Assembly (NCBI GenBank): GCA_938027655.1
Contig: CALJAP010000081.1
Location: 1 to 32,572, forward strand
Length of the DNA: 32,572 nt
Direction: 5' to 3'
Source of the DNA: an uncultured bacterium
GTDB taxonomy: Bacteria; Armatimonadota; HRBIN16
The notes beneath the pieces were generated by a model, which saw only the letters and a program-made list of their open reading frames with translations, was not told where the DNA came from and did no database searches. Position 1 is the stretch's first letter. Each line of letters starts with the position of its first letter. Below, piece after piece: positions 20,709 to 27,699 of the stretch. The translations under genes and the position numbers were made by a program.

Positions 20709-21611
20709 TTATGCCTCCCGTTCCACCATGAGATGGGCGATAGCTCGCAGCGGCTCTGCGCTCTCGCCAAAGGGGCGCAGTGTCGCTATGGCTTCCTGCA
20801 CCAGCTGATGCGCCCGCTGGCGTGAGGCTTCCACGCCAAACAGCGCAGGGTAGGTGACTTTACCTCGTGCGGCATCCGTACCCACCGCCTTGCCCGTTTT
20901 GCGTGGGTCGCCGGTGACGTTCAGCAGGTCGTCGGCAATCTGAAACGCCAGCCCGGTCAGTTCTCCATATCGGCTCAGAGCATCTACCTGCCACTTTTCC
21001 GCCCCTACCAGAATCGCCCCCGACACCACCGAAGCGCGAATGAGCGCGGCGGTTTTGTGGCGGTGGATGTACTCAACCGTGTCGGCGTCTGCTTGCTTGC
21101 CCTCTGACTCGATGTCCACCATCTGCCCCCCCACCATGCCGCGCGTGCCGGATGCTTCCGCGACCAGGTGCAATACCTGCACCACACGTTCGGCGGGGAC
21201 GGTATCGGCGTTGCGTGCTATCAGCTCGAAGGCACTGGCATAGAGGGCGTCTCCAGCTAGTATCGCCACCGCTTCGCCAAACTGCACGTGGCAGGTAGGT
21301 CGCCCTCGCCGCAGCGTATCGTTATCGATGGCGGGCAGGTCGTCGTGAATGAGGGAGAAGGTGTGGATGAGTTCTACCGCACAGGCGGTCGGCAGTACCA
21401 TCTGCGCTTCGCCGCCGACCGCTTCCGCACCGGCAATCACCAATATCGGACGCAGCCGCTTCCCACCTGACATGGTGCTGTAGCGCATCGCGCGGTGCAG
21501 GCTCTGTGGGCGAACATCTTCGCCGGGCAGATAACGCTCCAGCGCGTCGTCTACCAGACGAACACGCTCGCGTAGGTACCGGCTCAGGTCAAATGACAGG
21601 GAAGCGTTCAC
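20709..21611 (-). CDS. ispA: Polyprenyl synthetase, probably farnesyl/geranylgeranyl diphosphate synthase
   Basis: A 300-residue short-chain trans-prenyltransferase. It has GGKRLRP (49-55), the first aspartate-rich motif D90-D91-x4-D96 (LIHDDLPAID) and the second motif DDLLN (227-231), in which the last Asp is Asn. The residue five before the first motif is Phe (HTFSLIHDD), which in bacterial enzymes usually caps the product at C15; this is inference. The GTG start overlaps the folD stop by 4 bp (GTGA). In many bacteria xseA and xseB sit between folD and ispA; they are absent here. Confidence 0.92.
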   Translation of the reverse strand: MNASLSFDLSRYLRERVRLVDDALERYLPGEDVRPQSLHRAMRYSTMSGGKRLRPILVIAGAEAVGGEAQMVLPTACAVELIHTFSLIHDDLPAIDNDTLRRGRPTCHVQFGEAVAILAGDALYASAFELIARNADTVPAERVVQVLHLVAEASGTRGMVGGQMVDIESEGKQADADTVEYIHRHKTAALIRASVVSGAILVGAEKWQVDALSRYGELTGLAFQIADDLLNVTGDPRKTGKAVGTDAARGKVTYPALFGVEASRQRAHQLVQEAIATLRPFGESAEPLRAIAHLMVEREA

Positions 21612-22468
21612 TGCGTCCTCAACCTCATCTCCGCCGCGCGTACCGTGTTGGAAAGCAGCATCGCGATGGTCATGGGCCCCACTCCGCCCGGTACGGGCGT
21701 AATGTATGATGCTACCTGTGATGCCGACTCAAAGTGCACATCGCCTACGTCGCCACTGCGCCCCTCCACGCGGTTGTAGCCGGCGTCCACCACGACCGCC
21801 CCCGGACGTATCATGTCGCCGGTAATCAGCTCCGCCCTGCCACATGCCGCAACCAGAATATCCGCCTCGCGGGTGACCGAGGGTAGATCGCGCGTGCGGG
21901 TGTGACATACGGTGACAGTGGCGTTACGCTGCAGCAGTAACAGCGCCAGCGGCTTGCCCAGAATAATACTGCGCCCTACTACCACAGCGCGCTGCCCTTC
22001 GATAGGGATGTGATAGCGGTCAAGCAGTTCCACAATGCCCAGCGGGGTACACGAGACGAACTTCGCCACGCCTGCCACCAGCGCACCCAGTGAAGCGGGC
22101 GAGATACCGTCTACATCCTTGTCAGGGGACAGGTGATTGAGCAGACGTATCTCGTCGAGGTGCTTGGGCACAGGATGCTGAACCAGAATGCCGTGTACGC
22201 TCTCATCGGCGTTCAGGCGGGCGATCAGCTCTTCCGCCTCTTGCTGGGTGGTGTCATGGGGCAGAGCGAAGGTCTCCGACTCGATGCCCACGCCGCGACA
22301 CGCTTTTGCCTTCATACGCACGTAGGTGTGGGAGGCGGGATCATCGCCGATGATTAACACACTGAGCTTTGGCACGATGCCCGCCTCGCGCAGCCGTTGC
22401 ACCCGTGGCTTCAGTTCTTCGCGAATCTGCGCAGCGGTTGCTGCGCCATCCAGCAGCATTGCACTCAC
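21608..22468 (-). CDS. folD: Bifunctional methylene-THF dehydrogenase/cyclohydrolase FolD
   Basis: 286 residues; interconverts 5,10-methylene-, methenyl- and 10-formyl-tetrahydrofolate with NADP. It shows Tyr 49/Lys 53 in SHTYVRMKAKAC, ILVQHPVPKHL (the common QLPLP appears as QHPVP), DKDVDGISP, the nucleotide-binding VVGRSIILGKPLALLL and PVPGGVGPMTIAML. The GTG start at 22468 has GGAGGAG 5 nt upstream and overlaps the nusB stop by 4 bp. Confidence 0.95.
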   Translation of the reverse strand: MSAMLLDGAATAAQIREELKPRVQRLREAGIVPKLSVLIIGDDPASHTYVRMKAKACRGVGIESETFALPHDTTQQEAEELIARLNADESVHGILVQHPVPKHLDEIRLLNHLSPDKDVDGISPASLGALVAGVAKFVSCTPLGIVELLDRYHIPIEGQRAVVVGRSIILGKPLALLLLQRNATVTVCHTRTRDLPSVTREADILVAACGRAELITGDMIRPGAVVVDAGYNRVEGRSGDVGDVHFESASQVASYITPVPGGVGPMTIAMLLSNTVRAAEMRLRTQ

Positions 22469-22908
22469 CGATACTCCTCCAGATGTTTCAGTACGCTTGC
22501 CAGCACACCATTGATGAACTTGCCCGACTCGTCGGAGTTGTATTTCTTCGCCAGCTCCACCGCTTCGCTGATAACGACGCTATGAGGCGTTTCGGGATGG
22601 TGGAGCAGCTCATATATCGCCAGACGCAGCACGTTGCGATCGGGGACAGGCTGTCTCTCGGGAGGCCAGCCGATGGCGAAACGGGCGATAATAGAGTCTA
22701 TCTTCTGCAGGTTCTGCAGCGTGCCACAAGCCAGATCGTAGGCGAATTGCTGTCCTCCCTCCTCGATAGGCATGTGCTCCAGCGCAAAGGCGAAGCACTC
22801 ATCCAGCGGCATCTGCGCGATGTCCACCTGGTACAACAGACGCAGTGCCAGCTCTCTTGCCTGTCGGCGTGTGCCCGCGCTATGTTTTCGCAGCGTGGAA
22901 CTGCTCAT
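22465..22908 (-). CDS. nusB: Transcription antitermination protein NusB
   Basis: 147 residues, all helical. It has RRQARELALRLLYQVDI near the N terminus and the hallmark RNVLRLAIYELL ... VVISEAVELAKKYNSDESGKFINGVL in the C-terminal half (read as two separate blocks). With NusE (S10) it binds boxA RNA and promotes rRNA antitermination. ATG at 22908, 12 bp after the accC stop. Confidence 0.96.
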   Translation of the reverse strand: MSSSTLRKHSAGTRRQARELALRLLYQVDIAQMPLDECFAFALEHMPIEEGGQQFAYDLACGTLQNLQKIDSIIARFAIGWPPERQPVPDRNVLRLAIYELLHHPETPHSVVISEAVELAKKYNSDESGKFINGVLASVLKHLEEYR

Positions 22909-22920
22909 ATATCGCTCTCC

Positions 22921-24276
22921 TCACTCCGTGCCGTTTCGCAGGTAGCGGCGTAGGAATTGCGTGGATACATTGCCCTTTTGATACTCTGGGTGTTCTAGGA
23001 TACGTTTCAAGAAGGGCAAATTGGTTCTCACCCCTTCGATATGCGTTTCTTCTAGTGCCCGTCTCATCCGCGCGATGGCAGCCGGTCTATCCTCTGCCCA
23101 TACGATAATCTTTGCAAGCAGCGAGTCGTAGTAGGGCGGTATCTCGTAGCCCGGGTATAGATGGGTGTCCACCCGCACCCCCGGACCCCCCGGAAGCACC
23201 AGATGCGTGATTTTGCCCACGCAAGGAGCAAAGTCGTTGTCTGGGTCCTCGGCGGTAACGCGGCACTCAATGGCATGCCCCCGCCACTGCACATCGCGCT
23301 GAGAAAGGTGTAGCCGTTCCTTCGCCGCGATGCGTATCTGCTCGCGCACGATGTCCACCCCGGTGACCTGTTCGGTGACGGGATGCTCTACCTGAATGCG
23401 CGTGTTCATTTCGATGAAGTAGAAGTTCCCCTTGCTGTCCAGCAAAAATTCTACCGTACCTGCGTTGACATAGCCAACAGCCTTCGCCGCGCGCACGGCT
23501 GCTTCGCCCAGCTTCTGGCGCAGGGTTGGAGCCACTATCGATGCGGGTGCTTCTTCCACCATCTTCTGGCGTCTGGCGGTCTGGATAGAGCATTCGCGCT
23601 CGCCCAGGTGAATGACGTTACCATGCGAATCGGCGAGCACCTGCACCTCCACGTGGCGAGGGTCGGGGATGAATTTTTCCACGTATACCTCTGGCGAGCC
23701 GAACGCAGCCAGCGCCTCGCTCTGCGCCAGCTGCAGCACACGCGAGAGGTCTTCTGCATTTTCCGCGAGGCGGATACCCTTGCCCCCGCCACCAGCCACT
23801 GCCTTCACCAGCACCGGATAGCCGATACGCTGTGCCTGTTTTAGCGCTTCCTGCTCGTTGCGTATGGCGCCGTGTGTGCCGGGCACGATAGGTACCTTCG
23901 CCTGGCGTACAATCTCGCGTGCCACCGCCTTGTCGCCCATCTTCTCGATGGCGGAGGGTGGTGGACCGATGAACACCAGCCCGCTGGCTTCACACGCTTC
24001 GGCGAAGCTGGCACGCTCTGAAAGGTAACCGTAGCCCGGGTGGATGGCTTCCGCGCCGGTGATAATGGCTGCCATGATGACGTTGGGAATATTCAGATAG
24101 CTATCTTTGCCCGCACCGGGCCCGATGCACACCGCTTCGTCTGCCGCCTGTACGTGCAGGCTATTGGCATCGGCTTCCGAGTAGACGGCAACGGTGGCTA
24201 TACCCAGCTCTTTGCAGGCACGAATGATGCGTAGAGCAATCTCACCTCGGTTAGCAATCAGCACTTTCTGAAACAT
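22921..24276 (-). CDS. accC: Biotin carboxylase subunit of acetyl-CoA carboxylase
   Basis: A 451-residue ATP-grasp enzyme of standard length that carboxylates biotin on its carrier protein. It starts MFQKVLIANRGEIALRI. The glycine-rich ATP lid VAGGGGKGIRL, ARHVEVQ-type segment (PRHVEVQVLAD), YFIEMNTRIQVEHPVTE and GHAIECRVTAEDP are intact, with the catalytic Lys, Glu and Arg residues in place. The bicarbonate-side segment reads CSIQTARRQKMVEE, one residue longer than the common CSIQRRHQK form and with Arg in place of His. I choose the ATG at 24276 (GAGGGG upstream), 2 bp after the prepilin stop. Its adjacent accB-like gene lacks the biotinyl lysine, so the real carrier may be encoded elsewhere. 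Confidence 0.95.
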   Translation of the reverse strand: MFQKVLIANRGEIALRIIRACKELGIATVAVYSEADANSLHVQAADEAVCIGPGAGKDSYLNIPNVIMAAIITGAEAIHPGYGYLSERASFAEACEASGLVFIGPPPSAIEKMGDKAVAREIVRQAKVPIVPGTHGAIRNEQEALKQAQRIGYPVLVKAVAGGGGKGIRLAENAEDLSRVLQLAQSEALAAFGSPEVYVEKFIPDPRHVEVQVLADSHGNVIHLGERECSIQTARRQKMVEEAPASIVAPTLRQKLGEAAVRAAKAVGYVNAGTVEFLLDSKGNFYFIEMNTRIQVEHPVTEQVTGVDIVREQIRIAAKERLHLSQRDVQWRGHAIECRVTAEDPDNDFAPCVGKITHLVLPGGPGVRVDTHLYPGYEIPPYYDSLLAKIIVWAEDRPAAIARMRRALEETHIEGVRTNLPFLKRILEHPEYQKGNVSTQFLRRYLRNGTE

Positions 24277-24278
24277 GC

Positions 24279-24638
24279 TCAAAACCCCTCGTGCGACGGA
24301 GTAGGGCACTGCACTCGTCCGGTTTGTGGGTCATACCAGTAGGGTTGTTTGCTAACCGGGCAATACAGCATCTCTGCCGGCAATCGCAGGTCTTGTAAAG
24401 AGGCAGGCAAAGGCTCTTCACCCGTCGGACGAGACATACGGATGGAGAGGCGAATCTGCTGCAGGTTGTTCCGGCACTGTACCGCTAATGCCGCGTTTTC
24501 AGGCGTCTTGCGAGGTTGACCGGACGGCTCGGTGCCTCTGCCAGTATATTTGGGCAGTAGCCAGATTGCCAGGATCAACAGCAGGGCAAGCACCACCAGT
24601 ATCTCTACTAAACTCCACGCCTCATGAAACCGTCTCAT
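24279..24638 (-). CDS. Type II-like prepilin/pseudopilin
   Basis: 119 residues. The N terminus FHEA-WSLVEILVVLALLLILAI is a class III prepilin signal: cleavage would follow Ala 7, leaving Trp +1 and the diagnostic Glu +5 in front of one hydrophobic helix. The short globular domain ends with LYCP...YWYDP...VQCPTPSH, a Cys pair seen in small pseudopilins where it may form a disulfide. No assembly genes (ATPase, platform protein, peptidase) are nearby. The start overlaps the accB-like gene by 17 bp, and the stop is 2 bp from accC. The role is unknown: it could join a type IV pilus, competence or secretion pseudopilus encoded elsewhere. Confidence 0.8.
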   Translation of the reverse strand: MRRFHEAWSLVEILVVLALLLILAIWLLPKYTGRGTEPSGQPRKTPENAALAVQCRNNLQQIRLSIRMSRPTGEEPLPASLQDLRLPAEMLYCPVSKQPYWYDPQTGRVQCPTPSHEGF

Positions 24639-25047
24639 CGCCTTCCTCCTCTACCAGACGATACAGCGGCTGACCGTACTCCACCGCGATACCCTCCTCG
24701 ACAAGCACCTCTGCCACGCGCCCGTTGACAGGACTTTGCACCTCATTCATCAGTCCCATCGCGCGAATCAAACACATGACCTCACCCTGCTTGACAACAT
24801 CGCCCACCTGCAACGGCTTGGGGCGCGGCTGGAAAAAGCCCACCAGCGGCGAGCGTACCCATACCGAAACAGGTTCGGGCGCCGGAGATGGCTCTGCTAT
24901 CGGTTCCTGCACTGCTGGCGCCGCCACCGCTACCTGTCGGCGCGCCCGCAATCGCCAGGTACTGGTTTCCACCTCCAGCTCGCTCGCGTCGCTATGGTGG
25001 AGCAGGTTCAGCAAGCGCTCAATCCGTTCCACTTCTACCTGTGCCAT
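24622..25047 (-). CDS. accB: AccB-like biotinyl-domain protein lacking the biotinyl lysine
   Basis: A 141-residue protein with the layout of bacterial biotin carboxyl carrier protein: an N-terminal helix/strand segment (IERLLNLL...ELEVETSTWRLRAR), a Pro/Ala linker (~40-62) and a C-terminal biotinyl fold (64-135) including QVGDVVKQGEVMCLI and AVEYGQPLYRL. The attachment motif, normally E-A-M-K-(L/M)-M, reads R-A-M-G-L-M: Gly 98 is encoded by GGA at 24756-24754. It therefore cannot be biotinylated at the normal site. The reading frame is otherwise undamaged, and it sits 3 bp after the Cys-rich membrane gene and upstream of accC. Plant BADC proteins, which lack the same lysine and inhibit acetyl-CoA carboxylase, are the closest functional precedent (inference). 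Confidence 0.85.
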   Translation of the reverse strand: MAQVEVERIERLLNLLHHSDASELEVETSTWRLRARRQVAVAAPAVQEPIAEPSPAPEPVSVWVRSPLVGFFQPRPKPLQVGDVVKQGEVMCLIRAMGLMNEVQSPVNGRVAEVLVEEGIAVEYGQPLYRLVEEEGDETVS

Positions 25048-25050
25048 CGG

Positions 25051-26163
25051 CTACACCTTCAACTGAAAGATGAAGTATTCCACGATGCGCAGGATGTAAC
25101 TGACAAATATCACCGCGATGATGCCTATCATCATCCACGCAACGAATTCAGACGAGCGTGCCAGCGACTCGATCTTCATATACTGTACTTCGCCAGTTGA
25201 CGGCAGAAACGCGAAACGGGCGACGAAATTATCCACCGCACGGAGCACCTGGAATAGCAGTTGTTGAGCTTGCTGCGCGTAGTTCACCACGATGGTGACT
25301 GCAGCCACTATCACGATAGGGGCAATAACCTGATATTTCTGTTGCTGCCGGTAGTTGTAGATGATGCAGTTGCGGCACCGTTCACGCTTCTCTTCTTCCG
25401 AGAGATGTCTGTTGTAAGGGATGAAACGCACATTCTGACGAGGGTCACTGCTTGGCGCGCCCTTGCCCTCCAGCGCCTGCAGGATGACGCGCTCTTCACA
25501 CATGCAACCTACCCCCTCCCGCCAGCAAGCGCGTCGGGCGTGGTAGATAGGGCAGCTCTTGCGGATGCTTGGGCGACAGAAAGGTAGCTGCCAGCACTTG
25601 CCGAGAAATCGATTGGTCGGCTGGCTTTCTCGCGCCACATGTGCGCCGTACTGCAGGCTCCCCCGATTGAACATCTCGCGGAAGTAACCGGAGGTGACAC
25701 GCATCCATACGTCCAGCACTGCGAAAATGATGCCCGGTACCAGACACAACAACCCCGCCTGCTGGAAAGCCACCACCACTGCGGGCAAAAGGGTGGGTTC
25801 CCGCCCCTGTGGGGCAAGGTGGATGATGCCCAGAGGCGCGCCCAGAGCCAGCAGAGCCGCCAGCAGCAAGAAGATATATCCGATAGTGGTCTCCTGAATG
25901 TACAGCAAGGTGAAGCTCGCCGCGGCGGCAGCGGTGCTTATTAACAGCGCGCGCCCGGCGAGATTCACGTTCTGCTCCACGCGCAAGCGTTCGGCTGGGG
26001 GCAGGGTCGCCCACGAGCTGACCATGCCCGAAAAAACGCCCCAGAGCAGATATGCAATCGCCAAGACTGCACCCACTGCTGATACAACACCGACGAGCTG
26101 CAGCAGGTCCTGTAGCAGTTCTGCACTCTTACGGGCGCGAAAGGAACGAACTGGGCGACCCAT
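25051..26163 (-). CDS. Membrane protein with central two-CW-like cysteine-rich domain
   Basis: 370 residues, no family name I can assign with certainty. Hydrophobic segments at about 22-45, 68-90, 92-115, 125-150, 276-296 and 342-363 suggest six membrane passes. Between the fourth and fifth lies a ~120-residue soluble region with eight cysteines: C190, C196, C204, C213, C220, C222, C263 and C266. The pattern CW-x4-C ... CPIY ... ACW ... GxxC-x-C ... CRNC resembles the small 'two-CW' domains of other bacteria and looks like a metal or Fe-S site. ATG at 26163 with AAAGGGGG upstream. It sits between efp and accB, where most genomes have nothing. Function unknown. Confidence 0.8.
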   Translation of the reverse strand: MGRPVRSFRARKSAELLQDLLQLVGVVSAVGAVLAIAYLLWGVFSGMVSSWATLPPAERLRVEQNVNLAGRALLISTAAAAASFTLLYIQETTIGYIFLLLAALLALGAPLGIIHLAPQGREPTLLPAVVVAFQQAGLLCLVPGIIFAVLDVWMRVTSGYFREMFNRGSLQYGAHVARESQPTNRFLGKCWQLPFCRPSIRKSCPIYHARRACWREGVGCMCEERVILQALEGKGAPSSDPRQNVRFIPYNRHLSEEEKRERCRNCIIYNYRQQQKYQVIAPIVIVAAVTIVVNYAQQAQQLLFQVLRAVDNFVARFAFLPSTGEVQYMKIESLARSSEFVAWMMIGIIAVIFVSYILRIVEYFIFQLKV

Positions 26164-26188: not shown

Positions 26189-26755
26189 TTACTGCGCCTT
26201 CACGCGCTCCAGGTACTGGTCTGTTCGCGTGTCTACCTTGATGATGTCGCCCACGTTAATGTGAAACGGTACGCGCACGACCGCGCCGGTTTCAAGCGTA
26301 GCGGGCTTCGAGCCGCCGGAAGCGGTATCTCCACGCACGCCGGGATCGGTCTCCACCACCTGCAGCTCCACAAACCAGGGTATCTCCACGCCGACCACGC
26401 GTCCTTCGTGCATCAGCACCGTTACCTCCATGTTCTCTTTGAGGTACTTGATGCCATCGCCGAACTGCTCGCGGCGCACCATAATCTGGTCGTACGTATC
26501 CATGTCCATCAGGTAGTACTCATCGTCCTGATTGTACAGGAACTGCATGGGCTTGCGCTCCAGGAACGCCTGCTCCATGCGCTCGCCGGCGCGGAAGGTT
26601 TTATCTATCACCGCCCCCGTGCGCACGTTCTTCAGCTTGGTGCGCACAAACGCCCCGCCTTTACCCGGCTTGACGTGCATGAATTCGACAATGGTGTAGA
26701 TGTCGCCATCTACGATGATATGTAGGCCGTTGCGGAAATCGCTGGTGTCTATCAA
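26189..26755 (-). CDS. efp: Elongation factor P
   Basis: 188 residues, three beta-domains in the usual EF-P order. It rescues ribosomes stalled on polyproline stretches. The modification-loop lysine is Lys 32 in VKPGKGGAF. No EpmA/EpmB or other modifying enzyme is encoded in the window. The start is TTG at 26755 with AGGAGGT ~8 nt upstream; no ATG lies near the expected N terminus. It is the promoter-proximal gene of the twelve-gene minus-strand run and is 25 bp from the membrane-protein gene. Confidence 0.96.
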
Positions 26756-26791: not shown

Positions 26792-26821
26792 AGTATATCA
26801 AAGAGGGCAGGGTGAAGTCAA
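26792..26821 (-). promoter_or_regulatory. Promoter of the efp-to-translin gene run
   Basis: On the minus strand: TTGACT (26821-26816), an 18-bp spacer and an extended -10 TGA-TATACT (26797-26792). It is ~37 nt upstream of the efp TTG. No other promoter of this quality was found inside the following 8 kb on this strand. The rest of the 26756-26958 gap, including the upstream region of the PEP-CTERM gene, shows no clear motif beyond that gene's AAGGAGG. Confidence 0.7.
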
Positions 26822-26958: not shown

Positions 26959-27699
26959 ATGCAGAAACGCGTTTCTCGATGGCTCCTGCTCGTGGTAGCG
27001 GGGGTGATGGCGCTGACTGTCTCCGCAAGTGCAACCACCAACGTGGTGGGGTCTGCGGGGGCAGGGTGGCAGGCATGGTCTGCGCCTAATCAGGATGGGG
27101 ACCCCTACTGGGACAACACCTCTCAGGACGGGAACCAGAAGAATATCGGTTATTTCCTGAGCAAGACCGGTGGCTTCAGCAGCCATCCTGCCAGCCCGAA
27201 CATCACGCCACCCTGGTGGGGCTATAGCGGTGGTGGCGCGGACCTCAACTTCTACTTCAACAGCACCCTGTCTCAGTCAGTGAAGCTGGTCATTGAGGTC
27301 GCAGGCTACGCCAATATTAACGAGCTGGGCTGGTACGACGTGGCGAACCCCCTCGTTGGTGGGGTTATCTTTCCTGGTCCGGCTGGGGCAGGCTCTACCA
27401 CCGTGTTCACGCCGAGCACCAACTTCGGTCTATATATCAAGACCGCGGGCGGCAAGAAGTACTACACCCAGTCCATGTTGAACGTGGGATCAGAGCAGCA
27501 GCACCAGCACTTCGCTCTGTTCAAAGAGGCTCCGAGCGTCTACTGGATTGGCATCGAGGATAAGCCCGCGAACAGCGGCGAGGGCTTCGGTGGCGACTAC
27601 AACGACATGGTGATTCGCATGGCGGTCGTACCGGAACCCGCAACCATGAGCCTGTTTGCACTGGGCTTGCTTCCTTTGCTGCGGCGGCGTAAGGCGTAG
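26959..27699 (+). CDS. PEP-CTERM-sorted secreted protein, DUF4114-like
   Basis: 246 residues. A signal peptide (MQKRVSRWLLLVVAGVMALT..., likely cut after SASA at 25) is followed by a Gly/Asn/Trp-rich beta-type domain and GGDYNDMVIRM, the kind of (D/N)-x-N-D segment found in DUF4114 proteins. The C terminus (224-246) is a complete PEP-CTERM signal: VPEPATMS, a hydrophobic stretch and RRRKA. Such proteins are processed by an exosortase and released or anchored at the surface, often with exopolysaccharide; no exosortase is in the window. AAGGAGG lies ~10 nt upstream of the ATG. It is a single-gene unit ended by a hairpin terminator. The ligand or role is unknown. Confidence 0.85.
   Translation: MQKRVSRWLLLVVAGVMALTVSASATTNVVGSAGAGWQAWSAPNQDGDPYWDNTSQDGNQKNIGYFLSKTGGFSSHPASPNITPPWWGYSGGGADLNFYFNSTLSQSVKLVIEVAGYANINELGWYDVANPLVGGVIFPGPAGAGSTTVFTPSTNFGLYIKTAGGKKYYTQSMLNVGSEQQHQHFALFKEAPSVYWIGIEDKPANSGEGFGGDYNDMVIRMAVVPEPATMSLFALGLLPLLRRRKA

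Follow-up and report, generated by a model that had tools for sequence, protein, structure and literature searches.

What does an AccB-like protein do when it has lost the lysine that would carry biotin and yet is encoded in the same gene cluster as accC? The question is raised by a locus in the window, i.e., the whole stretch of 32,572 nt that was analysed, which comes from an uncultured member of the Armatimonadota. The initial annotation had noted a glycine at the biotinyl site of this protein and had proposed a bacterial equivalent of the plant BADC proteins, namely a negative regulator of acetyl-CoA carboxylase (ACC) tied to accC. Here we call the protein AccB2 and the canonical carrier of the same genome AccB1. 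A lysine-less AccB that is conserved beside accC points to a helper or regulator of fatty-acid synthesis that is itself non-catalytic. In our preferred reading of the sequence evidence, which we hold at a probability of roughly two-thirds, AccB2 would belong to the AccC-AccB sub-complex as a non-catalytic AccB subunit without biotin, acting as a BADC-like assembly aid and/or brake.

The accB2 gene and the ACC gene set

The accB2 gene (24622..25047, minus strand) encodes a protein of 141 aa, and its reading frame contains CLIRAMGLMNEVQSPVNG. The biotinyl motif reads RAMGLM, and the reading frame confirms that Gly98 (codon GGA, positions 24756-24754, minus strand) stands in place of the biotinyl lysine of the (E)AMK(M/L) motif of catalytic BCCPs. 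AccB2 is a genuine AccB homologue, matched by the Pfam family Biotin_lipoyl (E = 9e-14) and by the NCBIfam equivalog for BCCP, TIGR00531 (E = 4e-23), the latter at 82.7 bits, short of the curated cut-off (115.2). The AlphaFold2 model (mean pLDDT 90.8, approximately 98 over the C-terminal biotinyl domain) consists of an N-terminal helix followed by a beta hairpin and the biotinyl barrel. The retained helix-hairpin segment spans residues 1-36 (24940..25047, minus strand; helix at 2-18, strands at 23-27 and 32-36) and aligns with the N-terminus of AccB1, and the beta barrel spans residues 61-133 (24649..24867, minus strand). The top PDB matches of the model in Foldseek were BCCPs from E. coli (1bdo and 4hr7, the latter being the E. 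coli BCCP-BC complex), Pyrococcus and Arabidopsis (BCCP1, 9a87).

The initial annotation had also described the rest of the fold as intact. This holds for the biotinyl fold and the N-terminal segment but not for the thumb, which has 11 residues between G70 and G82 (24805..24837, minus strand) compared with 16 in all 58 canonical AccB proteins of the phylum. AccB2 has neither the biotinyl lysine nor a full thumb nor a sufficient family score, and is therefore predicted not to be a catalytic BCCP. Compared with bacterial AccB/BCCP proteins (TIGR00531; E. coli 4hr7 and 1bdo), it shares the fold, the N-terminal segment and a cluster of the efp-accB-accC type, but is lysine-less, trimmed in the thumb and below the family cut-off.

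The surrounding cluster lies entirely on the minus strand and begins with efp (26189..26755, TIGR00038), followed by a gene for a predicted membrane protein of 370 aa (25051..26163) that has no Pfam or NCBIfam match. After accB2 come a pseudopilin-like ORF of 119 aa (24279..24638), which overlaps the 3' end of accB2 by 17 nt, accC for biotin carboxylase (22921..24276; TIGR00514, 701 bits), and two downstream genes of conserved position that were named from sequence and gene order, nusB-like (22465..22908) and folD-like (21608..22468). The claim that accB2 is in operon with accC can be kept as far as the shared same-strand cluster is concerned, with the correction that the 119-aa pseudopilin-like ORF stands between the two genes. 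A sigma-70-like promoter candidate precedes efp (26792..26821, minus strand; TTGACT-18-TATACT, 10/12); it is a consensus match only and carries little weight, since four such sites occur in the region against 2.7 expected. Several features of the neighbouring genes were recorded in passing. The predicted membrane protein (25051-26163, minus strand) has a Cys-rich loop, the translation of the pseudopilin-like ORF (24279-24638, minus strand) includes AWSLVEILVVLALLLILAIW, and a gene divergent from efp (26959-27699, plus strand) encodes a secreted protein with a PEP-CTERM-like tail (VPEPATMSLFALGLLPLLRRRK).

The source genome (3.53 Mb, 99% complete, a single draft of 219 contigs) contains exactly one accC, which is the copy in the accB2 cluster, one accA and one accD, which are neighbours on another contig (C45), and one match to the biotin/lipoyl ligase (BPL) family. 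A canonical accB, whose presence remained to be checked after the initial annotation, is indeed found elsewhere in this genome. This accB1, with the motif EAMKVFNEV and a full thumb, is located on a separate contig (C205) between the genes for a DegP-like protease and homoserine dehydrogenase, and its product is 33% identical to AccB2. No second accC that might serve AccB1 is present in the genome (single PF02785 match), and the three further Biotin_lipoyl matches over the cut-off are, by sequence and length, E2 components of 2-oxoacid dehydrogenases and not other biotin carriers. Since the genome has exactly one accC, AccB1 must depend on the AccC from this cluster, which is encoded together with a carrier-like protein unable to hold biotin. 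AccB2 therefore coexists with both a canonical BCCP and a BC.

Two AccB lineages in Armatimonadota and other phyla

Among 61 genomes of Armatimonadota, we identified 58 AccB1 and 56 AccB2 proteins, with exactly one of each in 54 genomes. The biotinyl lysine is present in every AccB1 (58/58). Among the AccB2 proteins, lysine occurs in 17 and another residue in 39, namely Gly (23 proteins), Arg (8), Thr (3), His (2), and single cases of Ser, Asp and Asn. In the AccB2 tree, which was built with the biotinyl-site column left out, there were 9-11 changes between the lysine and non-lysine states, of which at least four are forced by well-supported branches. The thumb is trimmed in 44 of the 56 AccB2 proteins, and some have it at full length. 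Within AccB2, thumb and lysine are associated with a Fisher p of 0.03, a value uncorrected for kinship that we do not count as evidence. Some of the 17 lysine-bearing AccB2 proteins have the full thumb, and these 17 may play a carrier role.

Gene context also separates the two lineages. Within the phylum, 50 of the 56 AccB2 loci have accC downstream in the same orientation, and 40 have efp upstream; the pseudopilin-like ORF occupies the same position in 44 of these loci, and the predicted membrane protein is found in 27. Homoserine dehydrogenase, an unusual partner for a BCCP gene, is encoded beside AccB1 in 48 of 58 loci.

We further searched one genome per species (84,980 species) with a DNA pattern that requires, at the position of the biotinyl lysine, a codon whose first base is not A, together with the AccB spacing and a downstream VE[YF]GQ, and that by design selects for lack of lysine. 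As a result, 94 matches were obtained, of which 70 were AccB by profile search; the other 24, from Pseudomonas, Ralstonia and others, were rejected as chance matches. The lysine-less AccB2 proteins belong to Armatimonadota, Vulcanimicrobiota/Eremiobacterota, Elusimicrobiota, Walliibacteriota, Spirochaetota, UBP9 and Chloroflexota, while the isolated matches assigned to Burkholderiales and Actinomycetota appear to come from misbinned or misnamed genomes. Among the 56 matches followed by 1.5 kb or more of DNA, 46 had accC as the next gene in the same orientation. Eight of the ten exceptions are from Chloroflexota, where the gene mostly follows directly after efp. A canonical EAMK AccB was also present in most of the cross-phylum genomes tested. 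The spread of AccB2 may be wider still, because the pattern is blind to AccB proteins without VE[YF]GQ and to replacement codons that start with A. In a sample that was not selected for lysine (38 genomes around an Eremiobacterota genome), 25 of 27 accC-linked AccB2 proteins had no lysine. In a Spirochaetaceae MAG, the sole match to the BCCP family has Asp at the biotinyl site (EAMDMMN) and is encoded beside a divergent accC; either the genome is incomplete or a canonical carrier is absent in this case.

In a tree of 83 AccB proteins from several phyla, which is unrooted and based on a short alignment with some long branches, one branch (support 94/91) separates AccB1 from AccB2. By sequence, this fits an old paralogy. 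A broader proposal would make AccB2 an old cross-phylum ACC subunit, i.e., a biotin-less AccB that is encoded with accC, forms an obligate component, structural or regulatory, of the biotin carboxylase sub-complex and is an independent or ancestral counterpart of BADC; we consider its chances to be evenly balanced.

Proposed role of AccB2

The plant BADC proteins (Arabidopsis BADC1-3) are the closest likeness. They are BCCP-like, lack the biotinyl lysine and coexist with canonical BCCP in a heteromeric ACC. The identity between the two paralogs is 33% for AccB2 and AccB1 of the present genome and 25-30% for BADC and BCCP in plants (PMC11926652). AccB2 likewise is a BCCP homologue without the biotinyl lysine, but it differs from BADC in being bacterial and co-encoded with accC, in its shortened thumb, and in that the loss of lysine was recurrent and not single. 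By its anatomy, AccB2 may work like BADC, but we do not class it as one. Plant BADC contacts the BCCP thumb and aids BC-BCCP assembly in vitro, whereas inhibition has been reported in vivo (PMC11926652, PMC7712654), and the literature is accordingly split between an inhibitor in vivo and an assembly 'glue' in vitro (PMC11926652).

As for the mechanism, AccB2 would be made together with the cell's only AccC, while AccB1, the true carrier, is encoded elsewhere. AccB2 might then fill one of the carrier positions of the AccC-AccB sub-complex, either alongside AccB1 or paired with it, and so could determine how much biotinylated AccB1 is bound to AccC. Like BADC in plastids, it would in this way scaffold the complex and/or restrain the flux towards malonyl-CoA, and the effect could go in either direction. 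The thumb is kept in all 58 AccB1 proteins and trimmed in 44 of 56 AccB2 proteins, as would be expected if the two pair asymmetrically. Against a non-catalytic role in the carrier complex, we count the lysine in 17 of the 56 AccB2 proteins of the phylum and the linkage of the Chloroflexota gene to efp and not to accC.

The model of the initial annotation, in which AccB2 would be a purely competitive inhibitor, a biotin-free occupant of AccC that lowers ACC activity, is an unlikely form of this role. It is consistent with the BADC-like anatomy, given the inhibition reported in plants in vivo (PMC11926652, PMC7712654), and co-encoding with accC would allow AccB2 to match the amount of AccC. However, plant BADC promotes BC-BCCP assembly in vitro (PMC11926652), and a protein encoded with the only accC is more easily understood as an obligate subunit than as a conditional brake. 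Because accB2 is constantly co-encoded with accC, we favour a standing subunit. One biotinylatable AccB, one lysine-less AccB and one AccC reproduce the plant layout of BCCP, BADC and BC, and to this extent the proposed equivalence with BADC is supported; its negative direction is only partly supported.

It is very unlikely that AccB2 has left ACC altogether, for example to link AccC to the membrane protein or the pseudopilin, or to regulate transcription or translation of the cluster. The retention of the pseudopilin-like ORF (44/56) and the membrane protein (27/56) around accB2 within Armatimonadota would agree with such a role. Neither gene was seen beside accB2 in Eremiobacterota, Elusimicrobiota and Walliibacteriota, however, although accC is still present in these phyla, which speaks against such a role.

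Two further systems resemble this proposed non-catalytic subunit in part. The epsilon subunits of actinobacterial acyl-CoA carboxylases (e.g., TfAcCCE) are non-catalytic, promote holoenzyme assembly and activity, and were likened to BADC by the authors of that work (PMC7835884). A non-catalytic subunit, which may promote assembly, is also what we propose for AccB2, a likeness drawn by description only. To our knowledge, the actinobacterial epsilon subunits are not BCCP-like. In Chloroflexus aurantiacus, the heteromeric ACC has a fused BC-BCCP and a separate BCCP, and hence two BCCP domains (PMC11077971); unlike AccB2, both of these domains carry the lysine of the biotinylation motif.

Lysine-less BADC has been described as unique to the plant enzyme, and BCCPs without the lysine have been regarded as something that only plants use at the committed step of fatty-acid synthesis (PMC11926652). 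We found no report of a bacterial BADC or lysine-less AccB subunit in the literature searched; since coverage of the literature is incomplete, such a bacterial subunit is likely, rather than proven, to be new. If our reading is correct, a second, non-catalytic carrier subunit would be a widespread and ancient feature of heteromeric ACC, present in six or more bacterial phyla and mostly encoded with accC. It would have been overlooked because its annotation resembles that of an ordinary BCCP or biotin/lipoyl protein, and the annotation of lysine-less AccB2 genes as working BCCPs would be wrong. Such bacteria would also offer simple systems for settling the 'brake or glue' dispute over BADC.

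Conservation of accB2

A further alternative is that accB2 is a decaying duplicate, a functionless relic left in an essential cluster after AccB1 took over as carrier. The lysine was indeed lost many times independently, with varied replacements, and AccB2 diverges more between families than AccB1 does. On the other hand, within the genus accB2 is under purifying selection, with a median pN/pS of 0.28 compared with 0.25 for AccB1, and no disrupted copy was found among the genus genomes. In addition, one intact copy is kept in each of the 54 genomes that have both paralogs, VEYGQ and the glycines are conserved in AccB2, and the gene adjoins accC in several phyla. These observations make a decaying duplicate scarcely credible. 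In two more genomes of the same genus (93% and 77% complete), neither accB2 nor accC is present, probably because the region was not assembled.

The residue found in relatives agrees with that in the window: the biotinyl site is occupied by glycine in all eight same-genus genomes that have the gene, including that of the window, and by a residue other than lysine in 39 of the 56 orthologues across the phylum, and Gly98 is therefore not a chance occurrence. Both findings that could have overturned it, an error in the sequence or lysine in all relatives, were sought, and Gly98 proved genuine. Although the source is a single draft genome of 219 contigs, an error of sequencing or assembly and a mutation confined to this strain are both refuted, since eight independent genomes share the glycine through two synonymous codons (one has GGA and seven have GGG) and the pattern is found phylum-wide.
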